A DNA stretch of 43,152 nucleotides from Chitinophaga pinensis (GTDB lineage Bacteria > Bacteroidota > Bacteroidia > Chitinophagales > Chitinophagaceae). The stretch is taken from contig CAMCQV010000006.1 in the NCBI GenBank assembly GCA_945877085.1, positions 1-43,152 on the forward strand, in the 5' to 3' direction. This document shows, piece after piece, positions 17,735 to 40,810 of the stretch. The number at the start of each line of letters is the position of its first letter. Positions within the stretch are counted from its first letter, which is position 1. The notes under the pieces were generated by a model. That model did not search any database, was not told the origin of the DNA, and worked only from the letters and a program-made list of their open reading frames with translations. The position numbers were made by a program, and so were the translations under genes.

Positions 17735-18634
17735 CTAATTATTAATTGGATTGGTGCTCTTTTTAAACTCATAGATAATACTACTCCCTTTTGATGCATC
17801 TTTAATGGCGAATAAATTTGAGATCAAGCCAATAAATCCAGCTATTATCATTCCTAATTTTCCAGACTTTTTGTATTGCTCACTTAATAAGCTAACATAA
17901 AAACTATCATACCACATTGGTTTAAAGGAAACTAATTCAAAACCAATTTCATTCAATAAAGTGGTCATTGATTTTGGAGAAAAATGGTATAAATGTCTTG
18001 GTAAATCATATGCAGCCCAATATTTTTTATAATATTTGGCATCAAAGCTAGTATAGTTAGGAACTGCAATAATAAGTCTACCATTCTGTCTCAAACTTTT
18101 ATAACATTGATATAGATAGGGCTTAAGCGCGTGCACATGTTCTAAAACATGCCACATTGTAATCACTTCATACTCATTTTCTGGTAATTTAAAAATGGCA
18201 TCAGTTGGTAGCAGATGCAATTTATAATTTTCGTAAGCTCTTTCTCTTGTGGCTGCATCGGGTTCTAATCCAGTTACTTTCCAGGATTTTTGCTGCATTG
18301 CATGTACAAAAGCACCTGTTCCAGCACCGATATCTAATAAATGTCCCTTATGTCCTGTAAAGAGTGATTGAATCCAATTTGTTTTTTGAGCTAATGTCTT
18401 TGTCCTGATAAGATGATATAATTGGTTCATCCAACCCTCTTTTACGTCGGTGTGAGAAATATAAGCTTCGAATTTATAATACTGCCCTATTTCATCTTGA
18501 TTAGGTAAAGGTGAAGTAAATCTTACACTGCAATGGGAACAATGCAAAATTGTAAAGGAGGTTTGCGTTAGTGACAAGTCTTGACTTTCTATTGCGATTT
18601 GTGGATTGGTATCATTGCAAACTGGACAGTTCAT
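17735..18634 (-). CDS. Class I SAM-dependent methyltransferase with N-terminal zinc-ribbon-like motif
   Basis: MNCPVCND...LHCSHC; LLDIGAGTGAFVHAMQQKSWKVTGLEPD; MWHVLEHV. ATG at 18634 fits better than the ORF start at 18700. Confidence 0.85.
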   Translation of the reverse strand: MNCPVCNDTNPQIAIESQDLSLTQTSFTILHCSHCSVRFTSPLPNQDEIGQYYKFEAYISHTDVKEGWMNQLYHLIRTKTLAQKTNWIQSLFTGHKGHLLDIGAGTGAFVHAMQQKSWKVTGLEPDAATRERAYENYKLHLLPTDAIFKLPENEYEVITMWHVLEHVHALKPYLYQCYKSLRQNGRLIIAVPNYTSFDAKYYKKYWAAYDLPRHLYHFSPKSMTTLLNEIGFELVSFKPMWYDSFYVSLLSEQYKKSGKLGMIIAGFIGLISNLFAIKDASKGSSIIYEFKKSTNPINN

Positions 18635-18639
18635 ACTTT

Positions 18640-19134
18640 TTATTTTAAAAGGATTGCTACAATAGCGATTGTGGCAATAATCAGCGGCAAGATCCACCAT
18701 TGTTTAGAGGAAGTATTGAAATTATTTTCGGTTTGGTCTTCTATTTGTACTTTCTCTAATTGAATTGGTTGAAAATAATGAGCACTATTATAATTAGATT
18801 CGAAAGTATAAGCATCATTTAGAATATTCAATTGTCCTAAATTTCCTAAATCAACTATATTAGAAGCTGATAATTGATTTGTAAAAAAAGCTGCATAATC
18901 AATGATGGCTTGTTCAATAGTACAATCTAAATGTTCTGACAAATAAATATAAAATAATTTATTTGGTTTAGTTGTTGGTTCAATAATAGCATCAAATACA
19001 ATTTGATGCACTGGTGGTTGGAATTGACCATTCAATTGAATGGCATCAATCTGATTCAGTCTTAAATGTCCAATACCTGGTAAAACCAATTGTCCATGAT
19101 CCAAAAAATATTTTTCTAAAATAGTAAGCATCAT
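18640..19134 (-). CDS. HU-CCDC81-like domain protein with C-terminal TM helix
   Basis: LEKYFLDHGQLVLPGIGHLRLNQIDAIQ... resembles the N-terminal CCDC81-HU domain of Bacteroidetes SPOR proteins; C-terminal WWILPLIIATIAIVAILLK. Confidence 0.6.
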   Translation of the reverse strand: MMLTILEKYFLDHGQLVLPGIGHLRLNQIDAIQLNGQFQPPVHQIVFDAIIEPTTKPNKLFYIYLSEHLDCTIEQAIIDYAAFFTNQLSASNIVDLGNLGQLNILNDAYTFESNYNSAHYFQPIQLEKVQIEDQTENNFNTSSKQWWILPLIIATIAIVAILLK

Positions 19135-20972
19135 TATTTTCTAAATTTATATTGTATTCCAGCAAGTATTTGTATTCCTAGAGATGGATAATTTGCCCAA
19201 CGTTGGTATTGTTGGTCTAATAAATTCTCCCCTTTACCCCAAAAAGTCCATTGATCTGAAATGGAATACTGCATTCCTGCATTAAGCACAAAGGTATTGT
19301 TTAATTGGTAAGCATTTCCCAATCCAGCACTGGTTTTAGATCCAGTCCAAAATTGTCCAGAAGCATCCAATAAGAGTTTTTTATTGAATACCCAATTCAA
19401 TTGAGAGTTGAATTCAAAAGGCAGAATCCCCCAGGCTTGTGTATTTTCACGGATCAAATTAAATTGAATATACTTAAAATTATTTTTCCATAATAATTTG
19501 TCGCTAAATTGATACCTTAAATTACCATCCAATTCAATGGCTATGGCTCTTTTCTCAAATAAAACATCAAATTTTAAACCTTCCTGAACAGGGTTATTCA
19601 TTTGTTTAGTTTGATTGAAAAAAGGTAGTTCTCGATAATCATTTAAAGACATATTGAACCCATAATTCAATCGCTTGTTAACTGATACCTGTATATTAAA
19701 ATATTTATTTTCTTTCGAACTAATTGGCATGCTATTTGGAGCAGAAATCCAATGATTTTGACCAATTAATTGAATAAGTTGATTATTGATTACACTTGTA
19801 TTCCAACCTGCATCAATTACATAATTGGTGTCTTTTAATTTTTTAGTTAATTCGATTTTAGGGTACAATGCAAATTCACCATTTGCGATAGTTGGCCTTA
19901 CCCCAATATTCAATCGATACTGTGTTTTATTTAACTCAAGGGATGGATCAATTTGAAAGATGGTATTATTAATTGAATTACTATTTACTTGGGTATATTG
20001 ATTATAATTAAAATTAAAATCAGCATGTAATTTTAAATTATTTTTTAAACTATACATTATTGGGCTGTATAAATCTATTACTAGGTTATTTGCTTGGTTG
20101 ATTAAATTACTGTGATTGAATTTTAAAATGGGTGCATAATTGAATTGATCAGATACTACTTGTTTATTTATAAGTGAAAAGTTTGCACCAATAACTGTCA
20201 ATTTTTGTTCGAAATTCTTTAGTGGCAAAACGGTTGTATCAGGTACTAATCCATAACGATATCTATTGGATTGATTGAAATAAACCTGTGTATTTAAAAC
20301 CTTGTTTTTATTCATTGAATAACGACCATTATAATTAAGCCCAAACGTATTCCACTTTTGGATTGGATGCGGACCTGCAATAGATTCACTCAGGATACTT
20401 AAATGATGCTGCTGTGCTTTTTGATCTACCAAAGCACCTTCTAATTGAATGAATTGATTAAAATAGTTACCCATGCCAATTTTCAGATTGGCAGATTGCC
20501 TTAAAGAAATCATTGAATCAATTTTTATGGCTCTTGGTACCAAGGCAATTGGTTGGTATTGAAAACTTAAATTCTGGCTTGGAACTTGATACGACAAAAG
20601 GACTGAATTGGTATCAACCACTGCTGTTGCATTCAAAAATCCAATTTTAGCCACATTTTTTAATTGAGGTTTAAATGCAGAAACGATTGTAACTACTTTT
20701 TCTGGGATACTGTCAATTGTATACTTCTTGAGTGGTAAACTTGTGATAGGAGTCAATGGACTTATTGTATCTGCAATTTTATAGATGGCAACACTAGGTC
20801 TTTTTTTAATTGATTGATTCTTTATAGAGCTTGTTTTTTTATTAGACTTCTTTTTCTTTTTAGCGCTAATTGTGGTTTTTGCTTTCTTTTTGTTCTTTTT
20901 CTGAGCAATACCCATATTGCTAAAACAAATTAAAGCAATTACTAATAGTCCGTATCTTATAATTGATTTCAT
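19134..20972 (-). CDS. Outer-membrane beta-barrel (porin/TonB-receptor-like) with Lys-rich N-terminal segment
   Basis: Signal peptide ending SNMGIA|QKK; alternating amphipathic beta-strand pattern; terminal LAGIQYKFRK with penultimate-strand aromatic. Confidence 0.72.
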   Translation of the reverse strand: MKSIIRYGLLVIALICFSNMGIAQKKNKKKAKTTISAKKKKKSNKKTSSIKNQSIKKRPSVAIYKIADTISPLTPITSLPLKKYTIDSIPEKVVTIVSAFKPQLKNVAKIGFLNATAVVDTNSVLLSYQVPSQNLSFQYQPIALVPRAIKIDSMISLRQSANLKIGMGNYFNQFIQLEGALVDQKAQQHHLSILSESIAGPHPIQKWNTFGLNYNGRYSMNKNKVLNTQVYFNQSNRYRYGLVPDTTVLPLKNFEQKLTVIGANFSLINKQVVSDQFNYAPILKFNHSNLINQANNLVIDLYSPIMYSLKNNLKLHADFNFNYNQYTQVNSNSINNTIFQIDPSLELNKTQYRLNIGVRPTIANGEFALYPKIELTKKLKDTNYVIDAGWNTSVINNQLIQLIGQNHWISAPNSMPISSKENKYFNIQVSVNKRLNYGFNMSLNDYRELPFFNQTKQMNNPVQEGLKFDVLFEKRAIAIELDGNLRYQFSDKLLWKNNFKYIQFNLIRENTQAWGILPFEFNSQLNWVFNKKLLLDASGQFWTGSKTSAGLGNAYQLNNTFVLNAGMQYSISDQWTFWGKGENLLDQQYQRWANYPSLGIQILAGIQYKFRK

Positions 20973-20981
20973 AATCTTGTG

Positions 20982-23900
20982 TTATTGAGCTTTAATGGTT
21001 TCAGTGATTGCTTTTAGTTTATCTGCAGCAATTTGTTGTAAAGTTGGTATGGTTGCATTTTCAGCTATACTTTTATAGGTTGCAATTGCATTAAAGCTAT
21101 CGTTTTGTGCTAAATAGATATCCCCTAATAAAATGTATGTTTTAGTCACCCAGAATTCGTAAGAAGCTTGTTTTTTTATGACATCAAAGGCGGTCTTTTC
21201 TGCAATATTGTATTTTTGTTGATTGAAATAAATATATGCAGTTAAGTAGTGAGCCTCGGCAGTGTACATTGAACTATTTGATTTTAATACTGTATTCAGA
21301 ATTTGTAAAGCGCTAATAGTATCTTTTTGAGCAATTGTCTGTTGGTACAATGCCATATTTGCCATCAATACATCATCTGTAGCACTATTTTTATCAGCCA
21401 ATATAAGCGCTGCTGTCTTGGAAGCTTCAATCCAATTTTCGGCCTTGTATTGACACCTTAATAGTCCTTTGATTGCTTCATTTTTTTGCTCTTGTTGTGT
21501 TGCATATTGAAGTACTATTTTAAAGTATTGTTCTGCACCAACATAATCTTTTAAATTAAAATAATACAATCTAGCTGCTGTAATCGCTGCTCTTTCCGAA
21601 AATTGATTGGGTGCCTTATTTGCTATTTTTCCAAAATACACCGCAGCTGTATCATATTGATCTAAAGAATAGGCCATTTCCGCTAAAAAATTCATAGCGT
21701 TTAATTGGTATTTGCCAGCTGGGTAAACTTCTAAATATTTTCTGAAACCATTTGTAGCATTGTTATACTTTTTGTCTTCATATTGAATGATTGCAGCTCG
21801 ATACATCAATGAATCTTGTTCATTGAATGACAATGGTTTACCAAAATCATTCATAAATAGAACATAGGCTTCTGGCTGTTGTTCTTCTACAAAAATATTT
21901 CTGATGTATTCCAATGCATTGTCACTTTCGGCTGAATTTGGAAAAGCACTATACAATGATTTAAAATTTTGCAAGGCTTCTTGGTTCTTATTCAAGTTAA
22001 AGTATACAATACCTAATTTATAATAGGCCAAAGGATAGAACTCTGTAGCCTTATTGTCTAATAAAACTTTAGACAATGGCGTAATTGCTTCTTGAAATTG
22101 CTCCTTGCTTGTATAAGTATCTGCTAATTCCATTCTAGCATCACTTAAATACTTAGACTGACTAAAATCAGTATCATAGGTATTCAATATTTTTAGCTTT
22201 TCTTTATTTAAACCAAGCGCGCCATAGATGATCGCTTTTTGTAAAGTGGCATAATCTTCAAAATTCCAACCTAAATCAATGATTTTTTGATAAGATTTCA
22301 ATGCTTGCTTGTATTGTTTTGTCATAAATTGACAATCCGACAAACGTACTAATGCATCTTTCTGATAAGCTGAAGATTCGGTATATGGATTAAAATCTGC
22401 AGCAATCGTAAATAATTGAAGTGCTTTTGTGTAGTTATTATTTTTTAAATGACAGTACCCTAATGTATAATTAGCATGTTTTTTTGTGATTTCACCAATT
22501 TCAATAGGGTCTAAAATATATTTATCTAGATGTTCTATTGCTTCATCTATTCTACCCATTTTATACGATAACTCTCCAATCCAAAAATAGGTTTGTGCTA
22601 AAACGTTCTTATTATATGGCAAATTTTTAACTTGAGTAAATAGTTCATATGCTTTTTCATTTTGACCATCGTTGATCAAAAGTGCAGCCTTACCAAATAA
22701 AATATTTGGGTATAATTTCAAAAGTGCCTCTTCTAATGTATCCATTTTTTGATAGGCTTCATAGGCCTTATTAAAATCATTGCTATACGCTAAGGCGGTT
22801 ACATATAAACTCTTTGCTTCATTATTATAAATACTATTAGGATATGTTTGAGTAAATTTTTCAACCGATTGTAAGGCAACACTATATTCTTTTAATTCAA
22901 TCGACAATTTTGCATAATTAAATAATGCAATTTCTTTCTGAGCTAAATTCTGGCTTTTTGTTGCACAGAGAAAAAATGCATTTTTAGCTCCTAATTTATT
23001 ATTTATTTTTAAGTAAGAAGTTGCCAATAAGTACATACTATTTTGACCTAATGAATCTTCTACATTCGCTAATTGTTTAAACCCTTGTATAGCTTCATTC
23101 CATTGCTGTGCTTGAAAATAACAAAAAGACAATTGGTATAAATCCTGTGATTCTACTTGTTTTTGAGACTTCACATAATTTGCTAAATATGGCAATGCTT
23201 TTTCATATTGTTTTTGCTCAAATAATAAATGCCCCATTAATTGAGCTAATTGGCTGGTGTAATATTGTCCGTTTTTTTGTAATGCTTGCTCTGTATTTTT
23301 GATTGCTGCATCTACATCTCCTAAGAAATAATATAATTGACTGATATAAAAAGGGGTTAATGTGCTGTACGCTTTATTTTGTTCTGCAATTTTAAAACAG
23401 CTTAATGCCAATTTGAAATCTTTTTGTTGCAAAGCAACAAAGCCTGCATAATAATTAGCATCCGTGTAGAATGGACTAGATTTAACTTGTCTTATACTCA
23501 TTAAATAACTTGTAGACTGATCCCAATCCCCTTTTTTAAAATACAAATAACCTAACTGAAACTGCATTAAAGCAAGTTCATTATTTTCAAGGTCATCAAT
23601 ACTGATTTTTTGATATGCATGAATAGATGCATCAACTTGTTGTTTCTTAAAATAATATTTTGCCAATTCAAAATTCAATCTAGAATGATAGATCTTATTT
23701 GAATTATTTTTTAACCAATTTTCGGCTTGCTGAACTGCATAGGATTTTTCTAAAGCCACTGATAATAAATGGTAATGGAAAGCAATATCAACTGCATTTG
23801 GCTCAAAAACATGAGCAGATTGTATGGTTTGATAGGCAGCTAAACTATCCCCTTGCTGAAGGGATTTTAATCCATTTTGATATAATTGACTAAGTGGTGC

Positions 23901-23999
23901 CTCAAAATGCATTAATTGACTTGATACAGGCGTAATGAAAAGCAAGGAAAAAATGAATAGCAATAGGATTGGACTTGCTTTTTTGATGTGTTTTAACAT
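20982..23999 (-). CDS. Large secreted tetratricopeptide repeat protein
   Basis: 1005 aa; signal peptide ending TPVSS|Q; many TPR units (e.g. YYKLGIVYFNLNKNQEALQNFKSLYSAFPNS, YWIGELSYKMGRIDEAIEHLDKYI). Confidence 0.9.
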   Translation of the reverse strand: MLKHIKKASPILLLFIFSLLFITPVSSQLMHFEAPLSQLYQNGLKSLQQGDSLAAYQTIQSAHVFEPNAVDIAFHYHLLSVALEKSYAVQQAENWLKNNSNKIYHSRLNFELAKYYFKKQQVDASIHAYQKISIDDLENNELALMQFQLGYLYFKKGDWDQSTSYLMSIRQVKSSPFYTDANYYAGFVALQQKDFKLALSCFKIAEQNKAYSTLTPFYISQLYYFLGDVDAAIKNTEQALQKNGQYYTSQLAQLMGHLLFEQKQYEKALPYLANYVKSQKQVESQDLYQLSFCYFQAQQWNEAIQGFKQLANVEDSLGQNSMYLLATSYLKINNKLGAKNAFFLCATKSQNLAQKEIALFNYAKLSIELKEYSVALQSVEKFTQTYPNSIYNNEAKSLYVTALAYSNDFNKAYEAYQKMDTLEEALLKLYPNILFGKAALLINDGQNEKAYELFTQVKNLPYNKNVLAQTYFWIGELSYKMGRIDEAIEHLDKYILDPIEIGEITKKHANYTLGYCHLKNNNYTKALQLFTIAADFNPYTESSAYQKDALVRLSDCQFMTKQYKQALKSYQKIIDLGWNFEDYATLQKAIIYGALGLNKEKLKILNTYDTDFSQSKYLSDARMELADTYTSKEQFQEAITPLSKVLLDNKATEFYPLAYYKLGIVYFNLNKNQEALQNFKSLYSAFPNSAESDNALEYIRNIFVEEQQPEAYVLFMNDFGKPLSFNEQDSLMYRAAIIQYEDKKYNNATNGFRKYLEVYPAGKYQLNAMNFLAEMAYSLDQYDTAAVYFGKIANKAPNQFSERAAITAARLYYFNLKDYVGAEQYFKIVLQYATQQEQKNEAIKGLLRCQYKAENWIEASKTAALILADKNSATDDVLMANMALYQQTIAQKDTISALQILNTVLKSNSSMYTAEAHYLTAYIYFNQQKYNIAEKTAFDVIKKQASYEFWVTKTYILLGDIYLAQNDSFNAIATYKSIAENATIPTLQQIAADKLKAITETIKAQ

Positions 24000-24122
24000 A
24001 GGAGCCGTTGTTTAGTAGGATAGTATTATAAAAATACACTTTGATTATAAAACGCTTCGTTAAATAAGCTTATTGTGGAAAAACAGATACAATCCTTAAA
24101 TTTGTCAACAAATGCAATAAAT

Positions 24123-24533
24123 ATGTATGAACATACAACAACAGTAAGGGTAAGGTATGCGGAAACCGATAGAATGGATGTGGTGTATTATGGCAATTAT
24201 GCTATGTATTTTGAAATAGGTCGTGTAGAGGCGATTCGAAATCTTGGTGTATCCTACAAGGATATCGAAGATATGGGTTTCATTCTACCTGTTGTTGAGC
24301 TTAACATTAAGTATTTAAGACCAGCTAAATACGATGATTTAATTACCATTAAAAGTCAGATTAAGACCTTGCCAACCGACCATAAAATTATCTTTGACCA
24401 AGAAGTTTACAATGAAGCTGGAAAGCTTTTAACAATTGGACAGGTTAAACTTTATTTCATGGATGCCTCAATGAATAATAAAATCGAAATGCCTGCTCAT
24501 ATGAAGGAAAAACTAAGTGTCTATTTTAGTTAA
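24123..24533 (+). CDS. Acyl-CoA thioesterase (hot-dog fold, YbgC/4HBT family)
   Basis: VRVRYAETDRMDVVYYGNYAMYFEIGRVEAIRNLGVSY. ATG at 24123 preferred to GTG at 24075. Confidence 0.92.
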   Translation: MYEHTTTVRVRYAETDRMDVVYYGNYAMYFEIGRVEAIRNLGVSYKDIEDMGFILPVVELNIKYLRPAKYDDLITIKSQIKTLPTDHKIIFDQEVYNEAGKLLTIGQVKLYFMDASMNNKIEMPAHMKEKLSVYFS

Positions 24534-35136: not shown

Positions 35137-37659
35137 TTAGAACAATTCTGGCTGTTCGTCGTTAGGATCTTTAATGACTACTTTATTTTCCCATTGCATT
35201 TCGATGGATTTGCTAAAATCAACTAGTTTGGTACCAACTGCTTTAGAACCCATCACATCTACCATTTTACTCACTTTGAACTTGGCTTTTCTAAGTTGTG
35301 TCCCCTTTCCTGATTCTACCACTAATACAGGTTCAACATGCGTGGTCACAGCAGCTACATAATTGCCATTGCCTTCTTTAATAAACGAAAATGGTGTTTT
35401 TAAGGTAGTTGTCTCAATTTTAAAACGCTTGATATTGAACTGTAATTTCTCTTTATCTAAATAGACAGCAGTAATCACTTTTAATGGGTTAAATTTCTCC
35501 ATAAAAAGCACTTTCTCAGGATCAAACCTTTGGGTCAATTCTGTATCAGTCACCTCGTAATTACCGTCTTTGTATATGACGATTAATTTTTCGTCTTCGA
35601 AAGTACCTAAGTATAAACCCTTTTCTTCGGTATTCAATCTTCCAAATTTATCATCAAACCATAATTTTCTTCCAACTAAAGTGCTTTTACCTGCTTCCTT
35701 AAGTTTAACTTGTTTCACAGGGTATTTTGTAACCTGATTGCCTACACTGGTTCTTCCTTTTACTTCTAATGTTTCAAAGAAAAAGTCGAATTCCTTAATC
35801 CTTGCACTACAGTTTGGACTCAAAACAATTTTCACAGATTCCGCTTCACCATTTGCATTGATGGATAAATAATGCACTTTAGATTTTTCTAAACTCTTAG
35901 CTAAAACGTATTCTTTATCTCTAGTGACTCCAGTAACATTAAAACGTTTTGCATAGCTTATTCCAGAAGCACCATCTACATAAATCATATTGTAAGTAGT
36001 GCGTTCGTCATTTTTCTGAAATACAGCAGCATGAAGGATGTCTTTTCCAATAAATATTTTATCAGACACTTTCACCACTTTCATGGTGCCTCCTTTCGTA
36101 AATGCAATGATATCATCATAATCTGTACAGTCGCAAAGGAATTCGTCTTTCTTTAAACTTGTTCCAATAAAACCTTCAGACCTATTGATATATAGCTTTG
36201 TATTGGCTATGGCAACCTGCTTCACTTGAATGGTGTCAAACTCTTTCAATTCTGTTTTACGCTCTTTGCCTTTACCGTATTTCTTTTGTAAGTTTTCGTA
36301 ATAACTTACTGCATAATCTACAAGATTTTCTAAATTATGTTTTACTTCTTTAATATCTGCCTCGATGGATTTAATTTGAGCAATTAAATCTTCTATATCT
36401 AATTTATAAATCCTTCTTACAGGCTTATCCGTTAATTTTAATAAATCCGTTCTTTCAATTGGTTTTTTGAATTTCTTTTTAAATGGTTCAAAAGCCTTAT
36501 CTATTGCATCAATTACTTTCTCCCAGTTCAGGTGCTTTTTCTCTAATTCTTGGTAAATCTTCTCTTCAAAGAAAATCTTTTCTAAACTAGTAAAATGCCA
36601 TTTATCCAATAACTCTTGTAAATGAATTTCAAGTTCTGATTTTAATAATGCTTTGGTATGGTCTACTGAATGTTTTAATAAGTCACTTGCACCTAAAAAT
36701 TGTGGACGTTGATTCACAATCACACAGGCATTTGGTGACAGGCTAATTTCACAATCGGTAAATGCATATAAAGCATCAATCGTAATGTCAGGTGAAATAC
36801 CAGCCGCTAAATCAATTTGAATTTCGACTTGAGCTGCTGTGACATCAATTACTTTTTTGATTTTAATTTTACCTTGGTCATTGGCCTTGGTAATACTTTC
36901 CATCAATTGAGTGGTTGTTACACCATAGGGCACATCTTTAATCACCAATGTCTTCTTATCTAGTTCTTCGATATGCGCTCTAACCCTTACTTTACCGCCA
37001 CGCTTACCATCATTGTATGCCGAAGCATCTACCATGCCTCCAGTTTGAAAATCTGGTAGTAATTCGAATTTACGTCCTCTCAAATATTTGATACAGGCTT
37101 CTAATAATTCATTGAAATTATGTGGTAAAATCTTAGTGGATAAACCTACCGCAATACCATCCGCACCTTGGGCTAATAAAAGTGGAAACTTCATTGGTAA
37201 AGTAACCGGTTCTTGTTTACGTCCATCATAACTCAAAGCCCAATCGGTTGTCTTTGCATTAAACGCCACTTCTAGTGCGAATTTGCTTAATCTAGCTTCG
37301 ATATAACGAGAAGCTGCAGCAGAATCACCTGTTCTCACATCTCCCCAATTTCCTTGCGTCTCTACCAATAAATTCTTTTGACCTATATTCACCAATGCAT
37401 CTCCAATACTAGCATCACCATGGGGATGATACTGCATACTCTGTCCAATAATATTGGCCACTTTGTTGAATCTTCCGTCATCCATTTCTTTCATGGCATG
37501 CAGGATTCTTCTTTGAACTGGCTTTAAACCATCTTCAATTGCAGGTACCGCTCTTTCCAGAATCACATAGGAAGCGTAATCTAAGAACCAGTTTTTATAC
37601 TGTCCTTGAACGCCAGATTCGTTCTCTGTGACCCTACTTAAATTTTTCTCTTTTGCCAT
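35137..37659 (-). CDS. parC: DNA topoisomerase IV subunit A
   Basis: DYASYVILERAVPAIEDGLKPVQRRILHAM, YHPHGDASIGDALV, catalytic-Tyr region SAAASRYIEARLS. Confidence 0.94.
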   Translation of the reverse strand: MAKEKNLSRVTENESGVQGQYKNWFLDYASYVILERAVPAIEDGLKPVQRRILHAMKEMDDGRFNKVANIIGQSMQYHPHGDASIGDALVNIGQKNLLVETQGNWGDVRTGDSAAASRYIEARLSKFALEVAFNAKTTDWALSYDGRKQEPVTLPMKFPLLLAQGADGIAVGLSTKILPHNFNELLEACIKYLRGRKFELLPDFQTGGMVDASAYNDGKRGGKVRVRAHIEELDKKTLVIKDVPYGVTTTQLMESITKANDQGKIKIKKVIDVTAAQVEIQIDLAAGISPDITIDALYAFTDCEISLSPNACVIVNQRPQFLGASDLLKHSVDHTKALLKSELEIHLQELLDKWHFTSLEKIFFEEKIYQELEKKHLNWEKVIDAIDKAFEPFKKKFKKPIERTDLLKLTDKPVRRIYKLDIEDLIAQIKSIEADIKEVKHNLENLVDYAVSYYENLQKKYGKGKERKTELKEFDTIQVKQVAIANTKLYINRSEGFIGTSLKKDEFLCDCTDYDDIIAFTKGGTMKVVKVSDKIFIGKDILHAAVFQKNDERTTYNMIYVDGASGISYAKRFNVTGVTRDKEYVLAKSLEKSKVHYLSINANGEAESVKIVLSPNCSARIKEFDFFFETLEVKGRTSVGNQVTKYPVKQVKLKEAGKSTLVGRKLWFDDKFGRLNTEEKGLYLGTFEDEKLIVIYKDGNYEVTDTELTQRFDPEKVLFMEKFNPLKVITAVYLDKEKLQFNIKRFKIETTTLKTPFSFIKEGNGNYVAAVTTHVEPVLVVESGKGTQLRKAKFKVSKMVDVMGSKAVGTKLVDFSKSIEMQWENKVVIKDPNDEQPELF

Positions 37660-37680
37660 AACTATATTAATTCGTAAAGA

Positions 37681-38049
37681 CTAGATCCGAAAGGTATCTT
37701 CACTGCCCTCACTTAAACTATTTAATTCAATAAAAACAATATCTGTGATTGCGGTTAATTCATGCCAAACATTTGCAGGAATCCTAACCCTTGTTGGCGC
37801 AATCAATTCAATTGTTTTTGCTTCATTTGTTTCTAAATTCTTCCAGTGCAAATCTGCTTTTCCTTGAACTAAAAGCATGTCTTCTGGATTTTTTCCTGCC
37901 GAAATCCCTTTATGATAATGTTGCCCACTCACTGTGCCCGCATTTCTATACACCAATAAAAATTCACCCGTCCTGTCTGTCGCAAAATAATGCAATGCGC
38001 CACGTTCATCCACTGCTTTAACATCTATTGGGTGCACTTGTACAGACAT
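37681..38049 (-). CDS. Small cupin-fold protein (dTDP-sugar epimerase-like/WbuC-like)
   Basis: GTVSGQHYHKG...PEDMLLVQGKADLHWKNLE...TRVRIPANVWHELTAITDIVFIE. Confidence 0.72.
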   Translation of the reverse strand: MSVQVHPIDVKAVDERGALHYFATDRTGEFLLVYRNAGTVSGQHYHKGISAGKNPEDMLLVQGKADLHWKNLETNEAKTIELIAPTRVRIPANVWHELTAITDIVFIELNSLSEGSEDTFRI

Positions 38050-38054
38050 ATATT

Positions 38055-38891
38055 TTACGATTCTGTTTCATTTACAATAGAAGATCCCCCTGGCATTTGC
38101 ACTACCATATCTTTCCAACCCTTCGTCCAATTACCAACAAATACTATTTTACCTGCTTCTTCCAATGCCTTTAATCGAGCTACAATAAATGCATCTCCCA
38201 ATTTCACTTTTAACTTAGCCATGATATTGGATAAAGCACTTGGTAATTTTTGAGCATTCTTTGTAAGTAAGGATAAAATTTCTTTATCGTAACAACCAAT
38301 ATGCATGCTAACTAATTTCTTACCCCCTTCTAAAAATCGCACACCTTCATTTTCTTGACACAATTTCTTCCATTCATCAGGATCCAATTCAAATTCACTC
38401 AAAGTAATTGGTCTAGCCAATTTTTTAGCTTTCAAAAACTCTTTAGGTTGAATTAGACTTAAATGTGTCGGATAAAATAATTGGCCTTTCTCATTTAAGA
38501 ATGGCAGGTTATTTAAATACAAAACATGAATTCTACTTTGGTATTCCTTAAACTGACTCATTAACCAATAATAGCCTGAAACATCGTGTGCATTTTGTCC
38601 CATCCAAATCCATATCATTTCATTTTCATCATGGGTCAATGAATTGATTAAATGATGCACTGTTAATTTATCATCTACAATATCTAATTGATCTTCATAA
38701 GGAGAATTTGCTAACACATCTTTCCACCAATCTCTTCTTGCTTGGTATCCTACGGTTTCATAAATATCCAATAAAGGGCCAACTGCATAGTCGTCCTTAA
38801 TCTCAATAATCTTACCAGATAAAGATTCATCTAATTCAATAGCCTGCTCTAAAGCGGCTATATCTGCGGTATTAAATACTATGTGTATCAT
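38055..38891 (-). CDS. DUF1835 domain-containing protein
   Basis: [45 protein letters not shown]...[22 protein letters not shown]. Confidence 0.85.
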
Positions 38892-40767
38892 TTGCTTTGT
38901 CTAATTCAACTTTTAAATTATTGATAATAAACTCCTGTCTTTCTGGGGTATTCTTTCCCATATAATATTCTAACAAATGTTGAATATGATCGCCTTGTTC
39001 TAAAATAACTGGTGCCAATTTAATGTCGGAATTGATGAATTTCCCAAACTCTTCGGGACTAATCTCACCCAATCCTTTGAATCTTGTAATTTCTGGTTTA
39101 TTGCCTAATTCAGTGATTGCTTTTTGCTTTTCAGATTCATCATAGCAATAGATGGTCTTTTGTTTATTTCTAACACGGAACAATGGTGTTTCTAAAACAA
39201 ATACATGTCCTCTTTTCACCAAGTCTGGGAAGAACTGTAAAAAGAAGGTGAGCATCAATAATCGAATGTGCATACCATCCACATCGGCATCTGTAGCAAT
39301 CACGATATTGTTATAACGTAATCCATCTAATCCGTCTTCAATATTCAATGCATGTTGTAATAAGTTAAATTCTTCATTCTCATACACTACTTTCTTAGTC
39401 AATCCAAAAGCATTTAAAGGCTTACCCCTTAAACTAAATACAGCTTGCGTATCTACATTTCTGGATTTAGTGATACTTCCACTTGCAGAATCACCCTCAG
39501 TAATAAAAAGGGTACTATTTTGCTGTGTTGAAATAAAGATTTCTTTATTCTTAGCTGGTAATTCATCGTTTAGATGCACTCTGCAATCCCTTAATTTCTT
39601 ATTGTGCAAATTCGCTTTCTTAGCACGCTCATTGGCTAGTTTCTTGATCCCTGCTAATTCTTTTCTTTCGCGCTCGTTCTGCTCGATTCTTTTCTTTAAA
39701 GCATCAGCCACAGCTGGGTTTCTATGCAAGAAGTTATCTAATTCTTTTGCTAGAAATTCAGTGATAAAATTCTTCATACTAGGCCCGCCATCAGCTACAT
39801 TTTGCGATCCTAGTTTCGTTTTAGTTTGACTTTCAAAAACTGGCTCTTGTACTCTAACAGAAATAGCTGCAACAATACTTGTTCTAACATCAGATGCTTC
39901 GTAATCTTTTTTATAAAAATCACGAATTACTTTTACATAGGCTTCTCTAAAAGCTTGTTGATGTGTTCCTCCTTGAGTCGTGAACTGTCCGTTTACAAAA
40001 GAGAAAATATCTTCGCCATAATCATTGTTATGAGAAATAGCAATTTCAATATCCTCCCCTTTCAAATGTATGATTGGATACCTTAATTCATCTGGATTTG
40101 TTTTGCGCTCTAATAAATCCAAAAGTCCATTCTTACTTACAAATTTTTTATCGTTAAAATGAATGACTAAACCAGCATTTAAATAACAATAGTTCCATAG
40201 CTGACTTTCAATATACTCATAAATGAAATGGTAGTTTTTGAAAATGGTTGCGTCAGGTGTAAATACCACCAAAGTACCATTCTGTTCCGTCGTTTTTGAT
40301 TCCTTTGTTTCTTCGATTAATTGACCTCTTTTGAAGCTAGCAGATTTTTGTTTGCCTTCTCTGTAAGCGGTTACTTCAAAATCGTCGCTCAGTGCATTCA
40401 CCGCTTTGGTACCCACTCCATTCAATCCCACAGATTTCTGGAATGCTTTACTATCGTATTTTGCCCCTGTATTAATTTTACTTACTACATCCACAATTTT
40501 ACCCAAAGGAATCCCTCTACCATAATCACGGATAGTGACTGTTTTATCATGAATAGAAATTTCAACTTGTTTACCATATCCCATGGTATGTTCATCGATA
40601 CAGTTATCAATTACTTCTTTTATCAATACATAAATACCATCATCTGGAGCAGTACCGTCCCCCAATTTTCCTATATACATTCCCGGACGCAGTCGAATAT
40701 GCTCCTTCCAATCCAATGACCTAATGGAGTCTTCGTTATATTCTGCACCAATTTTTGCTTCTGCCAT
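38872..40767 (-). CDS. parE: DNA topoisomerase IV subunit B
   Basis: [81 protein letters not shown] at 40767 preferred. Confidence 0.96.
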
Positions 40768-40810
40768 AATTATCAATACTTTATGAGCAATAAATGCCCT
40801 AATCAAGCTG

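Follow-up and report, generated by a model that had tools for sequence, protein, structure and literature searches.

In a 43,152-nucleotide stretch of the Chitinophaga pinensis assembly GCA_945877085.1 (contig CAMCQV010000006.1; this whole stretch is termed the window), four closely packed minus-strand genes encode a tetratricopeptide repeat (TPR) protein, an outer-membrane beta barrel, a small protein with HU-like domains and a transmembrane (TM) helix, and a methyltransferase. These genes may be a pared-down local version of a trans-envelope module that is conserved in Bacteroidota and would provide proton-driven, Tol-like tethering and constriction of the outer membrane at division; the probability of this reading is put at about one half. 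The full module would consist of the TPR protein, a plug-less barrel of the TonB-dependent-receptor type, an HU/TM/SPOR protein, TolQ, TolR and a TonB/TolA-like protein. The window's genus has the least complete form of the module.

How widely are these genes kept together? Profiles of the TPR protein and the barrel were searched against 62 genomes evenly drawn from the class, and both match in 62 of 62. In 61 of the 62 the pair shares strand and order and is no more than one gene apart, within 400 nucleotides (nt) in 46 and more loosely in 15; G093 is the one genome in which they are separated (genomes and fetched loci are given by G and L numbers only where they have to be told apart). Two of the looser pairs, in G270 and G278, involve partial barrel matches, and the locus fetched from G270 (L132) has the two genes adjacent. 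The median TPR-barrel gap is 3 nt over 129 fetched loci. Among order-level relatives the flanks all differ and the pair stays, mostly followed by a gene of 330-460 amino acids (aa), and the adjacency is also seen in several other classes. The first-pass annotation had proposed gene-neighbourhood conservation as a check and counted a lack of synteny beyond close relatives as a contrary outcome; synteny is class-wide for the TPR-barrel pair and reaches other classes. Since nine same-genus relatives (L032-L040) repeat the four-gene order, as do L144, L113 and L116, and the pair is kept so widely in the class, the arrangement is not a product of chance. At one locus (L121:8979-9842) a PhzF-like gene of 287 aa, named by eye, stands between the TPR and barrel genes, and a gap of similar size occurs in other genomes of that genus.

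In Cytophagales and several other classes the full cluster has six genes, with TolQ/ExbB, TolR/ExbD and a TonB/TolA-like gene added. A scan with a three-sequence TPR alignment gave 79 named Cytophagales loci, of which 77 have the barrel, 76 ExbB, 74 ExbD and 75 the TonB-like gene; the scan returned mainly this order, closely related, and the loci are therefore not independent. The cluster runs on into a MotA/TolQ/ExbB gene, an ExbD/TolR gene and usually a TonB/TolA-like gene in L119, in L128-L130 and, outside the class, in 12 of the 17 loci inspected; this proportion is not a frequency because these loci were partly picked for an adjacent TPR-barrel pair. The TonB_C scores of the TonB/TolA-like transducer in the relatives' clusters are weak.

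Where, then, does the window's genome carry the motor? Its TolQ/TolR pair (L153) lies on a separate contig, C129, preceded by a peptidase fragment and followed by a prmC-like gene on the opposite strand (names by eye). In a maximum-likelihood tree its TolQ falls inside a 23-row class clade that contains the cluster-encoded TolQs (support 100/100), and the Ton-type ExbB clade of L152 is split from the cluster-TolQ clade by a branch of 2.24 (support 100/100). By this tree the relocated TolQ is shown to be orthologous to the cluster-encoded one. Complete genomes of the window's family show the same TolQR relocation, and in the family the pair lies beside a prmC-like gene (L153; L259-L263). At two loci (L264, L265) TolQR-TolA stands outside the TPR-barrel cluster and is followed by a FolC-like gene. 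This gene, named by eye, comes after TolQ-TolR-TonB/TolA-like both inside and outside the six-gene cluster (L264:4514-7735, L265:4643-7788, L129:10991-14320). At L152:1084-3237 two different ExbD genes come after the other ExbB gene of the window's genome, as in most genomes examined.

The 612-aa barrel (19134-20972, minus strand) is predicted to be 22-stranded and of the TonB-dependent-receptor type without a plug. Its AlphaFold2 model is confident over residues 160-612, with ten-residue-block mean pLDDT mostly >90 from residue 161, and 22 strands can be counted in it. By structure it comes closest to PfeA, Cir and BtuB (Foldseek: PfeA E 4.9e-17, BtuB TMt 0.63). The sequence profile matches the TonB-dependent-receptor family weakly (E 0.002), and Pfam gives neither a barrel nor a plug match for the protein. 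No N-terminal plug is found in the model, where residues 23-156 are disordered, nearly all with pLDDT <50. A beta-propeller fold, to which an IFT122 match (E 0.005) had pointed, is ruled out by the model. The disordered periplasmic tail carries a conserved segment (EKVVTIVSAFKPQLKNVAKI in the window) with a hydrophobic-x-hydrophobic core in 38 to 40 of 40 aligned class sequences, V, I, L or F being at the first position in 40 and I or V at the second in 38; in other classes it reads LPDFVITG or LPEFVITG. A TonB box is the strand gripped by TonB, and over a short length the tail segment resembles one; in the window the TonB-box-like segment, with a putative function of this kind, covers residues 91-113, EKVVTIVSAFKPQLKNVAKIGFL (20634-20702, minus strand).

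Could the cluster be a dedicated Ton-type uptake or export system, in which the barrel is a transporter with its own ExbBD-TonB and the TPR and TM proteins are accessory? This is the most probable of the alternatives and is nonetheless unlikely. Both the receptor fold of the barrel and the presence of motor and TonB-like genes in the same cluster in relatives agree with it, but the barrel model has no plug, each genome has one strong barrel match that is near-universal in occurrence, unlike the variable nutrient receptors, and the SPOR/HU partner has no transport role. Moreover, the examined genomes have another ExbB, mostly with two ExbDs beside it, and a separate Ton-type ExbB is kept in five of the five complete or near-complete genomes with the full set that were checked. 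The ordinary nutrient porin that the first-pass annotation had named as a contrary outcome is not what was found: the predicted barrel is plug-less, of TonB-receptor type and part of a conserved cluster.

The TPR protein (1005 aa; 20982-23999, minus strand) has a signal peptide without a lipobox and is proposed as a periplasmic scaffold. The domain call is firm (Pfam E 7e-39), and the window's assembly, which comprises 1.76 Mb in 140 contigs and is 84% complete, has one copy of the gene. Full-length relatives are present in nearly all Bacteroidota genomes sampled, and a lipobox is rare in the family (5 of 137). In L133 and L143, from one family of another class, a full-length TPR gene is flanked by a CBS-domain gene and by aroA (EPSP synthase), without a nearby barrel. 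A TolB-Pal pair beside the TPR gene of L133 was considered and rejected, the 428- and 171-aa neighbours being EPSP synthase and HSP20. The ybgF/CpoB TPR models are among the best matches of the window's protein, which is, however, four times longer, and similarity between TPR proteins is generic. The same caution applies to an accessory role in outer-membrane biogenesis or secretion, e.g. in the type IX secretion system or barrel assembly, in which the TPR protein would be a chaperone or a platform for assembly and its link to the motor incidental. The protein does match PorW/SprE (E 5.5e-13) and BamD-type (5.4e-15) models, but its scores fall under the curated cut-offs, at 48.5 of 250 bits for the PorW/SprE equivalog NF052312 and 55.5 of 81.4 for the other, and SPOR and TolQR would be left unexplained; such a role is somewhat less probable still than Ton-type transport.

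The third gene (18640-19134, minus strand) encodes a 164-aa protein with two HU domains and a TM helix, a shortened orthologue of the HU-CCDC81-TM-SPOR proteins from which SPOR has been lost. It aligns to proteins in which two HU-CCDC81 domains and a TM helix are followed by a long linker and, C-terminally, by SPOR. In the window the HU-CCDC81_bac_2 and HU-CCDC81_bac_1 matches stay below the Pfam cut-offs (22.8 of 35 and 12.9 of 26 bits), orthologues score far above them, and the two domains are clear from alignment, orthologue scores and fold; in the L041 orthologue all three Pfam matches exceed the cut-offs (76.5, 80.8 and 39.8 bits). Compared with the PDB, the alignment profile matches IHF/HU and, terminally, the FtsN SPOR domain; compared with the L146 protein it matched the SPOR end alone, weakly. 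The window's protein is modelled with a mean pLDDT of 87.5 and a single C-terminal TM helix (residues 145-163, 18646-18702, minus strand; hydropathy 2.3; helix 148-163 in the model), with almost nothing past it. The top structural match is chain 1K of the sperm doublet microtubule (8snb), presumably CCDC81, and HU proteins come next. Most orthologues of this gene have a SPOR domain, a type of domain that binds peptidoglycan at the division site. In Cyclobacteriaceae (L154-L198: Algoriphagus, Belliella, Cyclobacterium; e.g. L129:10153-10989) the third gene keeps TM and SPOR and the HU domains are gone, a mirror image of the window's family, where HU is kept and SPOR lost. These opposite losses indicate that the gene consists of two separable modules.

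Proteins of the HU-CCDC81 type were reportedly the subject of a membrane-to-chromosome-type proposal in 2017. For the present cluster a tether of this kind, with the HU domains binding the nucleoid and SPOR or the TM helix linking to the septum in chromosome partitioning, is improbable. The HU folds themselves are confirmed, but with 5 K+R against 16 D+E the HU part of the window's protein is acidic, and that of most orthologues is neutral to acidic, a composition that speaks for binding protein and not DNA; in addition, the model has short hairpins in place of long DNA-binding arms, and HU is dispensable in Cyclobacteriaceae. The idea of HU as a DNA binder is weakened by charge and arm length alike, and the nucleoid link that had been suggested for the HU-like protein finds no support here. 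Least probable of all is a conserved neighbourhood without joint function, the genes being together by chance or shared expression, as the long unrelated synteny around the cluster in the window's genus might suggest, since the TPR-barrel order survives across families with wholly changed flanks and TolQR-TolA(-FolC) moves as a block, joined to the pair or apart from it.

How might a trans-envelope module of this composition work? The TolQR proton channel would drive the TonB/TolA-like transducer, which would pull the barrel's disordered periplasmic tail by its TonB-box-like strand, with the TPR superhelix as periplasmic scaffold. The TM protein would position the complex, its SPOR domain on septal peptidoglycan in most lineages and its cytoplasmic HU fold serving to bind protein. 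In this way the outer membrane would undergo energized tethering and invagination at division, the task performed elsewhere by Tol-Pal. In the window's family, with SPOR lost from the HU-TM protein and TolQR moved to another locus, the HU-TM protein could act only from the cytoplasmic side. That Bacteroidota have in the six-gene cluster their equivalent of Tol-Pal, with a proton-driven pull on a plug-less TonB-receptor barrel constricting the outer membrane at the septum, the SPOR/HU protein positioning it, and some families losing HU or SPOR and relocating the motor, is put at a little under even odds. Of the earlier proposal, the envelope-spanning complex and the possible division-site link gain strong indirect support from class-wide synteny, from SPOR in most HU/TM orthologues and from the clustering of TolQR-TolA-like genes in many relatives; the nucleoid part falls away.

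Several observations weigh against the module as proposed. TPR, barrel and motor genes are unlinked in L133, L143 and L149, and the motor is unlinked in most Flavobacteriaceae-like genomes (family f21). In the window's family, complete genomes included, no TolA-like gene was found beside TolQR, and in the Algoriphagus transducer the TM histidine is replaced by Asn. SPOR is absent from the window's HU protein and from its assembly; the negatives for SPOR and the TolA-like gene come from an 84%-complete assembly and divergent sequences. G009, G073 and G155 are likewise without detectable SPOR, and most other family relatives carry a separate short SPOR protein. The TonB-box likeness is brief, and the functional side of the reading is inferred throughout. 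TolB_N is absent in 10 of 10 genomes by a profile search that detected its positive controls, and Pal is not encoded in the cluster: the window's genome has four OmpA-domain proteins, none on this contig or in the cluster. Thus TolB and Pal are not present at the cluster in disguise, and the name Tol-Pal itself is excluded.

At the locus, the packing of the four genes described in the first-pass annotation is confirmed with one correction, the methyltransferase start. The TPR-barrel gap is 9 nt, the barrel stop and HU start overlap as TAATG, and the HU-methyltransferase gap is 5 nt given a start at the internal ATG at 18634; the longest methyltransferase open reading frame (ORF), to 18700, would overlap the HU gene by 61 nt. 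A fixed stoichiometry, read earlier from the barrel/HU overlap, is not borne out; junction spacing differs among relatives. Promoter and terminator scans of the locus did no better than on shuffled sequence. Among the same-genus relatives (L032-L040) the order NupC-YchF-glutamine cyclotransferase / methyltransferase-HU-barrel-TPR / 4HBT-CinA-E2 is kept, with minor insertions, to the contig ends, and barrel identity falls to about 25-29%; L144 retains most of this order. The class I S-adenosylmethionine methyltransferase (17735-18634, minus strand; N-terminal CxxC...CxxC; Methyltransf_23 E 7e-24) has this position in no family but the window's, whose other genera either have it there (L113, L116) or do not (L112, L114, L115), and it is absent from the order- and class-level clusters inspected. 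Its earlier place in the core system is therefore given up, and on this distribution it is treated as a putative family-level passenger. A defence-system reading was also dropped, PADLOC giving nothing for HU or barrel and just methyltransferase-domain matches for the methyltransferase.

A thioesterase, YbgC, and a TPR protein, CpoB, are both encoded in the tol-pal operon (PMC7391070). Next to the TPR gene of the window is a divergent YbgC/FadM-type acyl-CoA thioesterase gene (24075-24533, plus strand; TIGR00051 88 bits, cut-off 68.7), which scores 77.5 bits with the tol-pal-specific TIGR02799, under the cut-off of 141. The two genes together are suggestive of tol-pal content, and the adjacency is seen only in the window's family. 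Elsewhere in the window (35137-40806), genes for type II topoisomerase A and B subunits are split by a DUF1835/DUF3658 gene and a 122-aa ORF, all on the same strand.

Bacteroidota, a major gut and environmental phylum, couple outer-membrane invagination to division without a recognizable Tol-Pal. A nearly universal cluster with a TolQR-type motor, a TonB/TolA-like transducer, a septal-peptidoglycan binder and a plug-less barrel makes the question of how they do so directly testable, and as the missing machinery that draws the outer membrane inward the cluster is a good candidate. If so, a TonB-receptor barrel would serve as a mechanical anchor and not as a transporter. A search of open-licence papers found none describing this cluster, so its novelty is provisional. 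In a 2025 survey, no tol-pal loci were identifiable in Bacteroidetes and PorE was proposed as an outer membrane-peptidoglycan tether (PMC12204202); the word SPOR is not in its main text.

PorE shares with the present cluster a TPR element and the proposed filling of the Tol-Pal gap in the same phylum, but it combines CpoB, TolB-like, carboxypeptidase and Pal-like domains in a single lipoprotein, and no gene of the cluster encodes such a protein. With the Ton system and its TonB-dependent receptors the cluster has in common the barrel fold, the TonB-box-like tail segment and ExbBD-TonB-type genes; it differs in the missing plug, the conserved SPOR/HU and TPR partners and the separate Ton-type ExbB elsewhere in the genomes. 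The window's third gene is orthologous to the HU-CCDC81-TM-SPOR proteins (Pfam HU-CCDC81_bac_1/2), with two HU domains and a TM helix, but has neither linker nor SPOR, and its HU matches lie under the Pfam cut-offs. Full-length orthologues resemble FtsN in topology (cytoplasmic N-terminus, TM helix) and SPOR domain, whereas they have cytoplasmic HU domains and are co-encoded with barrel, TPR and motor, and the window form is without SPOR. With Tol-Pal (ybgC-tolQ-tolR-tolA-tolB-pal-cpoB) the cluster shares a TolQ/TolR-family motor, a TonB/TolA-like transducer, a TPR protein, the proposed division role and, in the window's family, a neighbouring YbgC-type thioesterase; it has no TolB and no Pal, and has in their place a receptor-type barrel lacking a plug, a 1000-aa TPR protein and an HU/TM/SPOR protein.

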